Translations under genes and position numbers: made by a program | Shown here: in pieces, positions 808 to 46,225 of the stretch | Layout of the letters: every line of letters begins with the position of its first letter | Position numbering within the stretch: the first letter of the stretch is position 1 | NCBI GenBank assembly: GCA_903844645.1 | Contig: CAIMUP010000035.1 | Span: 1-46,225, forward strand | From: an uncultured Bacteroidota bacterium | Lineage (GTDB): Bacteria > Bacteroidota > Bacteroidia > AKYH767-A > JABDAW01 | Direction of reading: 5' to 3' | DNA length: 46,225 bases | The notes under the pieces: generated by a model | Seen by the model: only the letters and a program-made list of their open reading frames with translations | Told to the model about the DNA's origin: nothing | Database searches by the model: none

Positions 808-3800
808 ATGCAGAGTAAAGGAGCCATTAGATTTATCGCAATAGCATTCGCCATTGTTTGTTTGTATCAATTATCATTCACCTGGAAAACACACCAGATT
901 GAGAACCGCGCAAAAGATTTTGCCAAAGGCGACTCATCGGCTGAACACAGGTACCTCGATTCGATGAAGAGCGAGGCGGTGTATAACATGTTTATCCAGA
1001 AGTACACCTACAGCGAGTGTAAGGAACGGGAAATTAATCTCGGTCTGGATTTAAAGGGAGGGATGAACGTAACCCTGGAAGTTTCCATTCCAGAGATTAT
1101 CCGTGCTTTATCCAACAACAGCCCCGACCCTACCTTCAATAAAGCCTTGAGCAATGCCTTGGATAAAGAAAAATCCAGTCAGAAAGATTTTGTAACCATC
1201 TTCGGAGAAGAATTTCAGAAGCTCGATGCCCATGCACGGTTGTCTGCCATCTTCTCGAATGCGGCACTGCAAGATAAAGTTTCGTTGAATTCCACGAACG
1301 AAGAGGTCTTGAAGATTATCAAGAAAGAAGCCGACGATGCTTTTGAATCTACCTATAAGATTCTTCGGACTCGTATAGATAAGTTCGGCGTTACGCAGCC
1401 CAACATTCAGAAACTTTCCGGTTCAGGACGGATACTCGTGGAATTACCTGGGGTGAAGGATAAGGATCGTGTTCGTAAACTGCTTCAAGGAACCGCTAAG
1501 TTGGAATTCTGGGAGACTTTTAATTTAAAAGAAATCTATCCAGCCTTAACAAAGGCAGATGCCGCATTGCGAAGCATCATAGACCCTACAAGTGATACCA
1601 CTGCCAAAGATACTTCTGCCATTGCAATAAAAGATACTACTGGTGGTGGACATAAACCTTCTGTTGCATCTGCAATAAAAGATACTACCGGTGGTGGACA
1701 TAAGCCATCAACTGCCGCTGCGAAAGATTGTACATCGCTTGCATCCTCACTTGGAAAGACAGATACCGGAGGAAATAAATTAGATACCGGAAGCAATGCC
1801 TTTAAAGCCGCTGATGCCGCCAAGAAGAATCCATTGTTTGCATTGTTATTTAATATTCCACCAAAGACCAATGAAGAAGCCAAGGCAATGGAGAAAGCAC
1901 CTATCATGGGTTCTTGCTTAATTAAGGATACCGCAAAGGTAAATTCTTATTTAACCATGCCGCAAATCAAGGCGTTGTTCCCTGTCGAATGTAAGTTCTT
2001 ATGGACGGTGAAGCCATCTAGGTTTAAGGATAAGAATATCCTTGAATTAATCGCGATCCGCATTCCGGGCAATGGCAGAGAGAACAAAGCGAAGTTAGAA
2101 GGGGATGCGATCATTGATGCTGCCCAAGACTTTGGTCAGATGGATCACCGTCCCGAAATCACGATGGAAATGAATCCTGACGGAGCCAATATCTGGAGAA
2201 GAATGACCGCTGAATGCGCTGCCGTAGAGCCGCATCGTTCTATCGCGATTGTGTTGGATGATAATGTTTATTCGTATCCGAATGTTATTAATGAAATTCC
2301 GAATGGTCGTACTTCCATCACCGGTAGCTTCGAGGTGAATGAAGCGAAAGATTTAGCGAACATCCTCAAAGCCGGTAAACTCCCTGCTCCCGCGAAGATT
2401 GTTGAAGAAGCCGTTGTCGGTCCATCTCTTGGACAAGAAGCGATCAATGCAGGGTTGTTATCCTTCATCATCGCCTTGATTTTAGTCCTTATATTCATGG
2501 CATTGTATTACAGTACTGCGGGAATGGTTGCTGATATTGCTTTGTTTGCAAATATCTTTTTCATCTTTGGGGTACTTGCCTCGCTGGGTGCGGTGCTTAC
2601 TCTTCCTGGTATTGCCGGTATCGTATTAACCATCGGTATGTCGGTTGATGCGAACGTACTTATCTACGAACGGATTCGAGAGGAAATTGCGAATGGAAAA
2701 GGATTGCGACTCGCCATCACGGATGGGTATAAAATGGCGTATTCTTCCATCATTGACTCCAACGTAACAACCCTCTTGATCGGAATTATTCTTTATTCAT
2801 TCGGTTCTGGTCCAATACAAGGATTTGCGACCACGCTGGTTATCGGTATCTTGACTTCTTTGTTCTCTGCTATTTTCATCACCCGTTTTATTTTCGAGTG
2901 GAGATTAGCCAAAAACAAAGCCATCAAATTCGCTTCTAAATTCTCTGAAGGTGCGTTCAAGAATATCAATATTGATTTCATCGGTGCTCGTAAATATTAT
3001 TACATTATTTCAGGAACTATCTTGGTACTCGGAATTATTTCCATCGCTGTTAAGGGCTTCAATTTTGGCGTGGATTTTAAAGGCGGACATACTTATCAAG
3101 TTCAATTCAAACAGCCGGTAACTACCGAGAAAGTGATTGATGTATTAACCCCTGCTTTCGGGGCTGCGCCCGAGGTGAAGACGTTCGGATCGAACAACGA
3201 GGTGAAGATTACGACCACTTATTTGATTGATGTGAATAACCCGACGACTGACAGCTTAATCGAAAAGAAATTAAACGATGGCTTGGATAAGTTAGCTGGC
3301 AACAGCCACGAAATACGAAGCTCGCAGAAGGTAGGTCCTACCATCGCGAATGACATAAAAATATCGGCGGTGTGGGCTATATTTTTCTCCCTCGTGGTCG
3401 TTTTCTTTTACATCCTTATCCGATTCAAGAAGTGGCAATTCTCGCTTGGGGCGGTCGTTTCGCTGTTCCATGATGTGGTGATTGTATTAAGTTTATTCTC
3501 TATATTTAATGGCATCTTACCTTTCTCTTTGGAGGTGGATCAAGCGTTTATCGCGGCGGTATTGACGGTTATGGGGTATTCGATTACGGATACGGTGGTG
3601 GTATTCGATAGGTTGAGGGAATATCTTTCGACGCATAAGAAACAGGAAATTGGACCGGTGCTGAATCAGGCGTTGAATGCGACCTTGAGCCGGACGATCA
3701 ATACTTCGTTGACGATTTTCTTTGTTCTTCTTTCTATCTTTATTTTTGGTGGATCGGTTATTCGCGGTTTTTCTTTTGCTTTATTAATAGGAGTAATAGT

Positions 3801-4102: not shown

Positions 4103-4238
4103 GTGGGCGATATTTGTTATCCTGAATCTCCGTGAGAATATCGCGTAGCGGCGTGGGGATATCAGGTGGCGGCAACGGGATATCTTGTGGCGGTTTGGGG
4201 ATATGCTGTGGCGGCGAGGGGATATAATTTATGGTGTG

Positions 4239-4570: not shown

Positions 4571-5362
4571 CTAATCTTGGTGGTGTAGTTTCTCGATTAG
4601 GATGGTTAATTCTTGAAATTGTTGCCATGACAATCGTTCGGCGCGCAAATCGAGGTAGGGTAGGGTGGGATTGGGTGAATTAATCAGGTTTTTCAGGGCA
4701 TTCCTCAAAGTCTTCCTCCGTTGGTTGAAAGCAGTTTTTACTACCTTGAAGAATAATGTTTCGTTGCAGGATAATATGTTTTCATTTCTCTTGGTAAAAC
4801 GAAGAACTACGGAGCGTACCTGTGGCGGCGGATTGAATGATTCTTTTTCTACGATCATCAGGGTTTCGATGTCGTAATATGCCTGCATAAAGACGCTTAA
4901 AATACCATACGTTCGTGAACCTGGAGGGGCGGCGATACGGTCTCCAACTTCTTTTTGGAACATCCCGACGAGGTAGGGTATCTTTTCTTTATGTTCCAGA
5001 ACCTTAAAAAGGATTTGGGAGGAGATATTGTACGGAAAGTTGCCGATTATTGCGAAAGAGTCCTGAAAAAAATGGTCGGGTTGCATCTTTAGTACATCGC
5101 CGAGGATGATGTTTTCGGCGATGTCCGGGAATAGTTCTTGGAGGTAGCTGATGGCATTGGTATCTACATCCATCACTTTCAGGTGGAGGTCGTTTTTCGG
5201 GAATAAATGCTTGGTAAGTACGCCCATCCCACCGCCTACCTCCAGAACATCGTTGCAAGGATTTAGATTTAGGAATAATTGTACGATTTCTTGGGCAATA
5301 TCTTCGTCGTTTAAGAAGTGTTGACCGAGAAATTTCTTAGGTTTTAGCGGGGCGCGATTCAA
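4571..5362 (-). CDS. rsmA: 16S rRNA (adenine1518-N6/adenine1519-N6)-dimethyltransferase
   Basis: Dimethylates the two adjacent adenines in helix 45 of 16S rRNA late in small-subunit assembly, using S-adenosylmethionine. The 263-residue chain is of family length. It opens with PKKFLGQHFL, has the SAM-binding loop LEVGGGMGVLT (about residues 40-50; the first P of the usual GPG is G here) and the catalytic motif GNFPYNISSQ (about 108-117). The C-terminal part has the expected FNQRRKTLRNAL element. It is the last gene of a minus-strand run beginning with serS and starts 5 bases after the LysM-protein stop, so cotranscription is likely. No terminator is obvious at its end; array K follows. The identification is firm. 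Confidence 0.96.
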   Translation of the reverse strand: MNRAPLKPKKFLGQHFLNDEDIAQEIVQLFLNLNPCNDVLEVGGGMGVLTKHLFPKNDLHLKVMDVDTNAISYLQELFPDIAENIILGDVLKMQPDHFFQDSFAIIGNFPYNISSQILFKVLEHKEKIPYLVGMFQKEVGDRIAAPPGSRTYGILSVFMQAYYDIETLMIVEKESFNPPPQVRSVVLRFTKRNENILSCNETLFFKVVKTAFNQRRKTLRNALKNLINSPNPTLPYLDLRAERLSWQQFQELTILIEKLHHQD

Positions 5363-5367
5363 AAGAT

Positions 5368-6213
5368 TTAGAACTTATAATCTTTATACTTCGGCGTGAA
5401 TTCTTCGGGCTTGATTACCACATTTAATAGGAGAGAATTAAACTCGTATTGGGCAAAAAGACCTTTATGGTCGTATATAACCTCTATCACGGGCAGGTAG
5501 GTGTCTTTGTCCAGATAGAACTCTATCTTTTTTGCGAAACAATTAGGGATTTTTATGGTCTGCCCAGCCTTTATATCGTCGTAATCACTGATATTTTTAT
5601 TATTTGATAAGATCATATAATCTGCTACCATGAATTTCTTGCCGATGGTGTATAGATTTTCACCTTTTTCTACTTTATAATCTATAAAGGCAAAATCTTT
5701 ATTATCAATTGTAATCTTAAAATATTTCTTTCCTTTCCAATCCACCTCACCATCGTAGGTAAGTCCGGCATAGAAGTCCTCCTTTCGGTTTAATATATTA
5801 TAAGAAATGATCGCGCCAATGTATCCAAAGCCTATTTCATAGATTGTATGATGGTGGTTCTTTCGAACCAAGGAATTAAAAGGACTTAAATTAAGATTTA
5901 CATAGGGAAATTTGTTCGGTCGAACCAAAATATCATTATTGTTACTACCATACAGGAAAAGGGCTTCCGCTCCCGGGTCAGGATTCACATTATAGGAATA
6001 GACTTTCAGGGGATTGGTCTGTAATTTAATAATCATCTCGGCAGTGTACATCTTTCCATCCATCCTTTCAATCTTATTGAGGATATATCTACCCGATTTG
6101 AAATTATGTATAGCATCCAGCATCTGACTTATAAGACTGGTAGCGGTTTGTGCCTGCATTGCCGAGGTAATGCTTAATAAAATAAAGGCAATGATAAGAG
6201 AAATTTTACGCAT
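5368..6213 (-). CDS. Exported DUF1571-like protein with an internal LysM domain
   Basis: The product (281 residues from the ATG at 6213) has a cleavable signal peptide, MRKISLIIAFILLSITSAMQ, and then a body resembling the DUF1571 family. In the middle, about residues 180-225, is a LysM-like segment (VEKGENLYTIGKKF ... IKAGQTIKIPN) that should bind the glycan chains of peptidoglycan. The domain around it keeps the DUF1571-like beta-rich pattern on both sides, so LysM looks inserted. A frame continuing upstream to 6384 overlaps the DUF4286 gene and lacks a signal peptide at its start, so 6213 was chosen. The neighbours are DUF4286 and rsmA. A periplasmic envelope protein is likely; the family assignment is from memory and the biochemical role is unknown. 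Confidence 0.72.
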   Translation of the reverse strand: MRKISLIIAFILLSITSAMQAQTATSLISQMLDAIHNFKSGRYILNKIERMDGKMYTAEMIIKLQTNPLKVYSYNVNPDPGAEALFLYGSNNNDILVRPNKFPYVNLNLSPFNSLVRKNHHHTIYEIGFGYIGAIISYNILNRKEDFYAGLTYDGEVDWKGKKYFKITIDNKDFAFIDYKVEKGENLYTIGKKFMVADYMILSNNKNISDYDDIKAGQTIKIPNCFAKKIEFYLDKDTYLPVIEVIYDHKGLFAQYEFNSLLLNVVIKPEEFTPKYKDYKF

Positions 6214-9915: not shown

Positions 9916-10167
9916 CGCCGGAGAGATCTTCCGACAGAAGATCGCTATCTTCCGACGGAAGATCGAGATCATTGGACGGAAGATCGAGATCATTGGACGG
10001 AAGATCGAGATCATTGGACGGAAGATCGAGATCATTGGACGGGAGATCGAGATCATTGGACAGAAGATCGAGATCATTGGACAGAAGATCGAGATCATTG
10101 GACGGAAGATCGAGATCATTGGACGGAAGATCGAGATCATTGGACGGAAGATCGAGATATTTAGACT
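9916..10167. repeat. 21-bp array B, twelve units, packed with GATC
   Basis: Units start at 9916, 9937, 9958 and then every 21 bp to 10147. The first two and the last are diverged; the central ones are nearly identical. The repeated core is GATCGAGATC, a dyad of two GATC half-sites around GA, followed by ATTGGACGGAA. This puts about twenty GATC tetramers into about 250 bp. The array occupies most of the divergent gap between serS and the gene at 10244, and ends 50 bases before the latter's promoter box. The rest of the gap (9722-9915) shows no further feature. Confidence 0.96.
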
Positions 10168-16470: not shown

Positions 16471-16702
16471 TTTCGGATTGCGTCAACTCGGTTTCGGATT
16501 GCGTCAACTCGGTTTCGGATTGCGTCAACTCGGTTTCGGATTGACTCAATCTGGTTTCGGATTGACTCATTCCGGTTTCGGATTTCCTTCCATTCCTGTT
16601 CGGATTGTCCCATTCCGGTTTCGGATTGACTCATTCCGGCTTCGGATTGTCTCAATCCGGTTTCGAGTCGGCGCAATCCGGTTTCGGATTGGAATGAATT
16701 TC
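16471..16702. repeat. 21-bp array D, eleven units
   Basis: The core TTTCGGATTG starts at 16471, 16492, 16513, 16534, 16555, 16576, 16598, 16619, 16640, 16661 and 16682, so all steps are 21 bp except one of 22. Several units hold the dyad GGATTG-TCT-CAATCC or a near form. The first three units are identical and the rest vary. The array lies in the 830-bp gap between the FISUMP gene and ftsK. The piece 16218-16470 shows nothing firm. Confidence 0.96.
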
Positions 16703-19553: not shown

Positions 19554-20222
19554 TCAATGTCCGCCCATTTTTTTTGCTTCATCCATGGTCATCTCCTTAT
19601 ATCCTTCAGGAATTTTGAAGACGGCATCTTCGAGCTTGTCTTTGCTGACAGTTTTTGCGGTCATCTTCATACCCATCCCCTGCATGCTGATTACGTATTC
19701 CATCGGGAAGCCGTCAAGCCCCTTCAATCCGCCTTTTTGGGCTTGCGAATTTTTAGCCACAATATCTTTGGTATAATAAACGATTTGTTTTTCCTTTTCA
19801 CCCTCTATTGTTAATTCTGCTTTATGGCATGTATATCCACAAATCACCTTTGTTTCTTCCAAGTTTTTGACGGTTGTTTTCGGTTGTTTGCCTTTTTCTT
19901 TTTCCATATCGGCTTCAGAAATCTTGATCGCCGTTTTCTGTCCCATCATATCCATCAATGTGGTAGCGAACTTGGCTTTATCGTCATACAAAACGATGAT
20001 GGTTCCCATGCCCATCTTCATATCGGTTTTCGATTTGTCGCCTTTAAAGGTGAGCGTCATTTCTTTCGGCATCATGGAGGCTATTTGTGGGTCGAGATCA
20101 TTGTCTGTCATTGTGATTGAGAACACTACAGAACCTTCCGTCAGCTTGGTTTGTGCCTGTATCATGGATGTTGAGATTGACAGGGCGATTACGGTTATTA
20201 AAATCTTAAAATACGTTTTCAT
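19554..20222 (-). CDS. Exported DUF4412-like protein
   Basis: The 222-residue product has a signal peptide (ILITVIALSISTSMIQAQ) and resembles the DUF4412 family. Landmarks are GSVVFSITMTD, MTLTFKGDKSKTDMKMG, KVICGYTCHKAEL with two cysteines that could form a disulfide, YYTKDI and GFPMEYVISMQG. The methionine-rich tail (EMTMDEAKKMGGH) is notable and could bind metal, though this is speculation. The same landmarks occur in the lipoprotein at 24919-25560, so the two are paralogues about 5 kb apart. A promoter box lies at 20253-20260. A periplasmic role is likely; the function is unknown. Confidence 0.78.
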   Translation of the reverse strand: MKTYFKILITVIALSISTSMIQAQTKLTEGSVVFSITMTDNDLDPQIASMMPKEMTLTFKGDKSKTDMKMGMGTIIVLYDDKAKFATTLMDMMGQKTAIKISEADMEKEKGKQPKTTVKNLEETKVICGYTCHKAELTIEGEKEKQIVYYTKDIVAKNSQAQKGGLKGLDGFPMEYVISMQGMGMKMTAKTVSKDKLEDAVFKIPEGYKEMTMDEAKKMGGH

Positions 20223-20360: not shown

Positions 20361-21020
20361 TTAATTAATTTCATTTGGGGCAGGAGGTTTCACCGATTGA
20401 TTTCCTATATCTTGATACGTTTTCTTTTCACGTTTTATTAGTAAAGAATATTCTTCTTCTATTGTTTTGATCTCCGCCTTTGCTTTGTCAAACGAGAGGA
20501 GTATTTCCAAGGAAGTTGCATATCCTTTTTCCATTTTTTCGAGCTGATCAGCAAAGCCCACCGATTCTTCGTTTGTTAAATGCCCCGCTGCCTGCATCTT
20601 CACGAATTCATCTAATAAAAATTTATATGCCACTACTTGTTCGCGCATTGCAAATGGTAAAAAAGCTCTAAATTCTCGTTCGCATTGGGGGCATTTATAA
20701 ACATAAAAGGTAAAATCCATTTGTCCCTTTTCTGCTCGCAAAGGCTGGAAGGTGGCGGAATACTTACAATACACACAGGTATCTTTATAATAATCCTTCA
20801 GCTTTCTTTCCTCCTTTGCTTTGTCTTTCAGCAAGGATTCGTATCAACCATTCGCAAAACTTATTATTTGTTTTTTCAACTGTTCGCTATTCTCATTAAA
20901 TAATTTTAATTTTTCATTCTCCGCCTCTTCGTCAAACACCATCCCTCTGTAAAGATCGAGAGCGTAATCTATCAACTCCAACAACTCTTTTTCCTCGGCA
21001 GTAAACACTTCTTCTTCCAT
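20361..21020 (-). pseudogene. Zinc-ribbon protein gene interrupted by one in-frame TGA
   Basis: Reading from the ATG at 21020 gives 58 residues (MEEEVFTAEEKELLELIDYA ... IISFANG), then TGA at 20844-20846, then the same frame continues YESLLKDKAKEERKLKDYY to the stop at 20361. Without the TGA it would be one 219-residue protein. The second part has CVYC (about residue 80) and CPQC (about 110), a four-cysteine zinc ribbon, between helical, coiled-coil-like stretches. The downstream half alone would have to start at TTG 20834 with no promoter, while a -7 box stands in front of the 21020 start. One TGG to TGA change would explain it: a real nonsense mutation, a sequencing error, or readthrough. 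The function is unknown. Confidence 0.8.
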
Positions 21021-21043: not shown

Positions 21044-21051
21044 CAAAAGTA
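21044..21051 (-). promoter_or_regulatory. -7 box for the TGA-interrupted gene
   Basis: TACTTTTG on the minus strand, followed by CCGC, fits TAnnTTTG and lies about 24 bases upstream of the ATG at 21020. It supports that ATG as the true gene start. Confidence 0.6.
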
Positions 21052-21289
21052 CGCATTAATTAAATGACGTTTGATTCATTTCTCATCGTTCAACTGAACC
21101 GAGATGAATTAGGGTTTGATCAACCCTTTTGATGGCATTTTCGAGGAATAATCCCCTCAATTACCCTTTTCAAGGATTAAAACATGACAGCAGAGAAATC
21201 CATTAGGAGTTTTCGTCTGTGTAATTTTTTTTCTTTTAATTTTAAATTTGTGGCTGACAAGTACTACCTATACCTTTTGGCAAAGCATC

Positions 21290-24358: not shown

Positions 24359-24606
24359 CGCTTGGTATATTATTCGGAGCGGTAAAACTAACTAAAGTTT
24401 CGGTGGTTCTCGGCAGTCATTAGTAATACCTGTCAAACCCTTTTTCATTCCCCGAAACTCCTGCCCCGAGGAATCCTTTCCATCCTCCCGAATCGCTTTG
24501 TGGGAGGTCGCATAAATTTCATGAATCGGCACCGCCCCCAACATGCCTTCGGGTTATATTTAATGGATTCCAGCCTGCCCCAATTCGGGAAGGGATTAGA
24601 ATAAAT

Positions 24607-24754
24607 GCTTTATAGCGATTGTTACTTCACAATCGAGGTAAGGCATGTGCTTTATAGCGATTGTTACTTAACAATCGAACGAAAGCATGTGCATTATAGC
24701 GATTGTTAAGTAACAATCGAACGAAAGCATGTGCTTGATTACGATTGTTACTTG
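24607..24754. repeat. 42-bp array E built of two alternating 21-bp dyads
   Basis: The start of TTATAGCGATTG or its variants recurs at 24607, 24649, 24691 and, diverged, 24733, exactly 42 bp apart. Each unit has two dyads, CGATTGTTA/TAACAATCG and AAAGCA/TGCTTT. Their centres (24667.5, 24688.5, 24709.5) are 21 bp apart. The middle of the dyad at 24700-24719 is inverted relative to that at 24658-24677. The array lies in the divergent gap between the RND gene and the lipoprotein gene. The piece 24391-24606 shows nothing I recognise. Confidence 0.92.
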
Positions 24755-28513: not shown

Positions 28514-28611
28514 TGGCATATAGAATCCATTCTATATGCCTGAAGAAGCATTCTTTAGCCCTATGGAATGATTCTTTAGGCATAAAAAATCATTCTATAT
28601 GCCTGTAAATA
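28507..28611. repeat. 21-bp array F with a 26-bp palindrome
   Basis: The core CATTCT, or GATTCT, starts at 28528, 28549, 28570 and 28591. The first unit also exists inverted, forming GGCATATAGAAT (28515-28526), CC, and its perfect complement (28529-28540). Weaker inverted repeats centre at 28559.5 and 28580.5. The array lies in the convergent gap between the methyltransferase and dtd and begins in its terminator. Confidence 0.9.
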
Positions 28612-31166: not shown

Positions 31167-31370
31167 TGCAAATTACCAAAATATAGTTGCAAACTGTCAG
31201 TTTGCAACTACATTTCGCCAGTTTGCAGTCGCAAATTCCAAATTTGCGACTGCATTTTATTGGAATGCAATCGCAAATCTCCCAAATGCAATCGCAAATT
31301 TTCGGGATGCAATCGCAATTTATCAGGATGCAATTGCAAAATATCAGCTTGCAATTGCTTTTTGGGAATA
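31167..31370. repeat. 21-bp array G with two perfect inverted repeats
   Basis: TGC cores start at 31167 and 31188, then, after one 15-bp step, at 31203, 31224, 31245, 31266, 31287, 31308, 31329 and 31350, every 21 bp. Later units read TGCAATCGCAA. Two perfect inverted repeats are embedded: 31184-31196 with 31198-31210 (13 bp) and 31225-31237 with 31241-31253 (13 bp). Their centres are exactly 42 bp apart. The array fills the divergent gap between the WG gene and apaG; 30968-31166 shows nothing clear. Confidence 0.94.
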
Positions 31371-33787: not shown

Positions 33788-33950
33788 TTTGGATTTCGCA
33801 TAGGTCTTGGGTCCAAGACCTATGCGAAATCCAAATTTCTGATAGGTCTTGGACTCAAAACCTGCGTGAAATCCAAATTTCTGATAGGTCTTGGACCCAG
33901 ACCTATCAGAAATTTGGATTTCTCGTAGGTTTTGGATACCCTGATGGCGA
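33788..33950. repeat. 42-bp array H with two very long palindromes
   Basis: TAGGTCTTGG begins at 33801, 33843 and 33885, 42 bp apart, and a diverged copy begins at 33926. Arms 33788-33810 and 33813-33835 are a perfect 23-bp inverted repeat with a 2-base centre. Arms 33868-33891 and 33899-33922 are a perfect 24-bp inverted repeat with a 7-base loop. The array lies in the divergent gap between the TPR gene and the subtilase gene; 33951-34150 shows nothing further. Confidence 0.94.
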
Positions 33951-38477: not shown

Positions 38478-38666
38478 ATTTAAATTTGGTATCCCGCGAT
38501 ATCAAAGTTGTATCCTACAATACCATTTTGGATTCCTACAATACCAATTTGGATTCCAAGGATACCAATTTGGTTTCCCACGATACCATTTTGGATTCCC
38601 ACGATACCATTTTGGATTCCCACGATACCATTTTGGATTCCCACGATACCAAAATGGTTTCCTACG
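38478..38666. repeat. 21-bp array I, nine units
   Basis: ATACCA or a variant starts at 38499, 38520, 38541, 38562, 38583, 38604, 38625 and 38646, all 21 bp apart, with a diverged unit at 38478. The small dyad CCATTTTGG or CCAATTTGG is in most units. The array lies in the 270-bp gap between topA and the ureohydrolase gene, both on the plus strand. The 86-residue frame across it is a repeat artefact. Confidence 0.95.
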
Positions 38667-46091: not shown

Positions 46092-46225
46092 GAATCTTCT
46101 CGACGACTTGTCGGATCTTCTCGGAGTTTAGTCGAATCTTCTCGGAGTTTAGTCGGATCTTCTCGGAGTTTAGTCGGATCTTCTCGGAGTTTAGTCGAAT
46201 CTTTTCGGAGTTTAGTCGAATCTTC
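46092..46225. repeat. 21-bp array J, seven units, cut by window end
   Basis: GRATCTTC starts at 46092, 46113, 46134, 46155, 46176, 46197 and, with one change earlier, 46218, every 21 bp. The common phrase is TCGGAGTTTAGTCG. The last unit is cut by the window edge, so the array probably continues. It is unrelated in sequence to the other arrays. Confidence 0.95.

Follow-up and report, generated by a model that had tools for sequence, protein, structure and literature searches.

In-frame stop codons are reported to be widespread in bacterial genes and frequently under purifying selection (Belinky et al. 2021, PMC7918605). Nonsense pseudogenes and in-frame stop polymorphisms of the kind described there have one in-frame stop in a gene that is otherwise preserved, a sense codon at the same place in relatives and an apparently recent origin, and the gene analyzed here shares these features. 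UGA recoding, either to selenocysteine or in codes that read TGA as Trp, likewise presents an in-frame TGA followed by an open frame. At the protein level, the nearest described families are CpXC (PF14353) and Zn_ribbon_8 (PF09723), which have in common with the predicted product two CxxC knuckles followed by helices. The gene lies in a stretch of 46,225 nucleotides, analyzed in full and referred to below as the window.

A zinc-ribbon gene interrupted by a single TGA

We re-read the minus-strand frame of the gene and found an ATG, 58 codons, a TGA, 160 further codons and a TAA (Table 1). The preliminary description had reported this arrangement, with intact CxxC pairs and no other lesion, and the frame bears it out: both pairs (CVYC and CPQC) are intact and no further stop occurs. 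None of 20,000 first-order Markov sequences of the same composition remained open over 160 codons (expected frequency about 1e-5), so the open frame beyond the TGA is not due to chance. When read through the TGA, the gene scores 242.8 bits with the family profile, and intact full-length members score 242.5-280 bits. Its codon usage is normal, its C-terminal ..IN end is common to most close paralogues, and it keeps all four Cys and every position invariant in an alignment of 47 homologues except R59, the residue at the TGA.

The ATG had been called promoter-linked, in agreement with the presence of TACTTTTG, a TAnnTTTG element, about 35 bases upstream, a match based on the short consensus alone. 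Several intact paralogues have similar TTTG elements upstream at comparable distances; a scan of the minus strand for sigma-70 type promoters gave no match. The promoter and start of the gene look intact.

Table 1. Coordinates of the interrupted gene and of other features of the window and its genome
Feature	Position	Strand	Remark
Interrupted gene, four-helix zinc-ribbon protein	20361..21020	-	219 residue positions, TGA counted as one
N-terminal part, 58 codons, before TGA	20847..21020	-	homologous to N-termini of intact paralogues
Premature TGA	20844..20846	-	family-conserved Arg position (Arg in 19/21 and 47/47 homologues)
C-terminal part, 160 codons, then TAA at 20363-20361	20361..20843	-	CxxC...CxxC zinc ribbon
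TACTTTTG, TAnnTTTG-type -7 promoter element of Bacteroidota	21048..21055	-	consensus only, position approximate
In-frame TTG, nearest possible restart codon past TGA	20832..20834	-	putative
Tandem arrays	1-108, 4148-4225, 9933-10158, 16471-16691, 24606-24753, 28515-28604, 31265-31355, 33793-33913, 38483-38666, 46092-46225		period 21 or 42 bp
Family genes in the window's genome: window gene, C2, C90, C118, C76, C142, double-domain genes on C30 and C117			profile search

TGA is a stop codon in the window's organism

The genome carries prfB (L081, contig C73), and the short ORF before it ends in AGGAGGTTTCTTTGA, a textbook programmed +1 frameshift site of RF2 (autoregulatory). Within the window, TGA ends two of 29 long ORFs, including the neighbouring one at 19554-20222. 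The anticodon TCA (UCA) is absent among the 36 tRNAs found, an absence limited by the draft state of the genome. Under the same limit, a search of the genome with the tRNA-Sec model gave nothing over the cut-off, the best match being tRNA-Ser(TGA), and all matches to the SelB model fell under the curated cut-off. TGA is a true stop in this organism, because prfB retains its frameshift site, ORFs end in TGA, and no tRNA with a UCA anticodon, tRNA-Sec or SelB was found. Code reassignment is ruled out by prfB with its frameshift site together with the tRNA set; selenocysteine insertion or other UGA recoding is not supported, given the identity of the tRNA-Sec match, the sub-threshold SelB matches and the Arg residue of relatives. 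Two other stops that were considered, a TGA in L047 and a TAG in L044, terminate those genes at their natural ends.

The interrupted position is a conserved arginine

Of 21 homologous domains aligned with the window gene, 19 have Arg in the TGA column; the other two have His and, in a divergent double-domain copy, Ala. Every one of the 47 homologues aligned from named genome records likewise has Arg there, and among them all six Arg codons are used. In the latter alignment, the row of the window gene was read with TGA as Arg by choice and was left out of the count, and six distant loci among the 21-domain set overlap partly with the 47 homologues. The suggestion that the codon was once a tryptophan TGG does not hold: the Arg column, the lack of a UCA anticodon among the tRNAs found and the presence of RF2 rule out both a mutated Trp codon and a code in which TGA means Trp.

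The lesion lies one substitution from some Arg codons. It is unlikely that this single difference arose as an error of sequencing or assembly, or reflects the allele of a minority strain in a metagenome-like consensus, and that the gene is intact in the population. The isolated lesion in an otherwise intact gene and the fragmentation of the assembly (143 contigs) would fit such an origin, but the TGA site contains no homopolymer or repeat, and a second paralogue, on contig C76, is lesioned too, though possibly itself through an error. Good-depth short-read assemblies, moreover, seldom contain lone substitution errors.

Both halves match intact paralogues

The genome of the window (3.8 Mb in 143 contigs, 98.7% complete) contains further copies of the C-terminal half, and the family profile gave 10 domain matches there in eight genes. 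The best paralogue, on C2 (L002), reads MSMEEEVYNADEKELFELIEF...KHANTRFEFEQ... and on through the zinc ribbon in one ORF, and it matches the window gene over both halves. Two further genomes of the same genus have four and three family copies. Among 395 genomes sampled from the class, six had a single distant copy, and the named genomes scanned with the distant group yielded 67 loci, including Pontibacter, Rufibacter, Adhaeribacter and many uncultured Bacteroidota. Single-protein scans of genome and viral contig collections returned no close relatives. The preliminary description had taken the two parts for one gene, a view that relatives with two separate genes would contradict; all homologues examined are a single ORF across the TGA site. 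By this comparison both halves evidently belong to one gene, because the site is crossed by one ORF both in the paralogues of this genome and in homologues throughout the class.

In the tree, the window gene clusters with the C2 copy and three tandem copies of a same-genus genome (100/98), on a longish end branch (1.24 vs 0.8-1.3). These tandem copies (contig C18 of G002, 1372-3747; L008, L009 and L010) are all intact, each 224-225 codons from stop to stop. The genes on C30 (L005) and C117 (L006) are double-domain versions of 460 and 440 codons, with two zinc ribbons apiece. The neighbourhood of the window gene is not conserved: the flanking DUF4412 gene is kept in relatives, and in three of them the family gene is absent beside it. 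A same-place orthologue was rejected on this basis.

Compared with the whole family, the window gene keeps seven of seven consensus positions before the TGA and seven of 14 beyond it, the smallest share among 22 rows. When the comparison is restricted to close paralogues, it keeps 16 of 29 positions after the TGA, and intact copies keep 18 of 33 and 19 of 32. The loss of consensus past the TGA appears mild and at most hints at relaxed selection, since 16/29 falls within the range of intact close paralogues.

The C76 paralogue (L007 from 1288, plus strand; contig positions about 5055-5690) has a frameshift near an A6 run, which could reflect a pseudogene, a slippage site or an assembly error. 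Its C-terminus, ending in MDIN, lies in another frame, which points to ongoing decay among family members. In the window's genus the family is multi-copy and diverges fast. Its copies have been duplicated and have moved, diverge rapidly and are in some cases broken, a pattern consistent with gene birth and death.

The TGA falls in the middle of a predicted helix

With the 47 homologues, AlphaFold2 gave a model at pLDDT 82; the single sequence gave a poor one (pLDDT 47). The model has two N-terminal helices, at residues 8-25 and 32-77; the zinc ribbon, at about 79-118, is rich in strands and is followed by helices at 125-144 and 150-207. Residue 59, the TGA position, lies in the middle of the second helix. 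A 58-residue stub would comprise one helix and half of the next and lack the zinc ribbon, and neither piece should fold like the whole protein, because the site is midway along a helix of 46 residues.

These features bear on the possibility that the locus is a split gene with two products, the 58-residue stub and, by restart at the TTG at 20834, a zinc-ribbon protein of 157 residues. This TTG lies in frame three codons past the TGA and a restart there would leave the zinc ribbon whole; against this, the halves are separate genes in no relative, the cut is in mid-helix and the next in-frame ATG is inside the zinc ribbon. We regard a split gene as the least probable of the readings considered. 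Two products from one gene by readthrough, as proposed earlier, are similarly not borne out: searches for recoding machinery and a decoding tRNA found neither, the TGA falls midway along a helix, and the C76 copy is frameshifted. Readthrough at a low level keeps a small probability.

A search of the PDB for the fold of the model gave nothing at E <= 0.001. Pfam, NCBIfam and PHROGs gave weak matches only, those in Pfam and NCBIfam all below curated cut-offs. The sub-threshold profile matches were that of a paralogue to CpXC (E 0.00024) and those to Zn_ribbon_8 (E 0.012-0.016). The best paralogue reached 21.5 bits with CpXC, below the 25.4 bits of its cut-off, and the halves of the window gene had no listed match to CpXC.

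Tandem arrays in the window

The window contains ten tandem arrays with a period of 21 or 42 bp, whose unit sequences are unrelated. All ten are intergenic: eight inner arrays separate long ORFs, and the remaining two form the ends of the contig. At other loci of the same genome (123.5 kb), 49 of 69 array rows, which overlap, have a period of 21 or 42. Arrays also occur in same-genus genomes, and other Bacteroidota loci (428 kb) gave three rows of period 21. The 21-bp tandem arrays are genus-wide.

Discussion

The window gene, which belongs to a multi-copy paralogue family, is probably a recent nonsense allele: either a young pseudogene or a broken allele that still segregates in the population. 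A point substitution in the conserved Arg codon, which lies in the long second helix, would have produced the TGA. Translation would begin at the intact promoter and ATG and stop at the TGA via RF2, leaving a 58-residue stub without the zinc ribbon, and the other intact copies in the genome would make the loss tolerable. We infer that the loss was recent and neutral and that the stub is functionless. The retained Cys residues and other invariant positions (bar R59), the normal codon usage and the intact-looking promoter and start count against a nonsense allele. The break had been described beforehand as recent, erroneous or functional, and with one gene, one lesion and an intact zinc ribbon this description stands.

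The preserved downstream frame could instead indicate a functional, leaky TGA, at which basal readthrough of the UGA produces small amounts of the full-length protein and the stop serves as a down-regulating element. The reported prevalence of bacterial in-frame stops, often under purifying selection (PMC7918605), would favour such a role. The stop, however, is shared by no homologue (21 domains, 47 homologues), RF2 is present and autoregulated, and suppressor tRNA, SelC and SelB were not found in the genome; we consider a leaky TGA very improbable. That the leaky stop is maintained for regulation, and throttles one copy within a new helical zinc-ribbon family of Bacteroidota, seems slightly more doubtful.

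A nonsense codon that breaks one paralogue is an ordinary event, and the value of the analysis is mainly corrective: the interrupted column is Arg and TGA is a normal stop. It also brings to view an uncharacterized helical zinc-ribbon family, which has a single copy in the sampled distant genomes and has expanded in the window's genus, decaying copies included. Compared with CpXC and Zn_ribbon_8, to which all matches lie under curated cut-offs, this family has an additional long N-terminal helical hairpin. The window gene differs from the cases of Belinky et al. (2021, PMC7918605) in belonging to a paralogue family, with no orthologue close enough for dN/dS. It differs from recoded UGA codons as well: the recoding machinery was not found, RF2 is present, and the homologous residue at the site is Arg rather than Cys/Sec or Trp.
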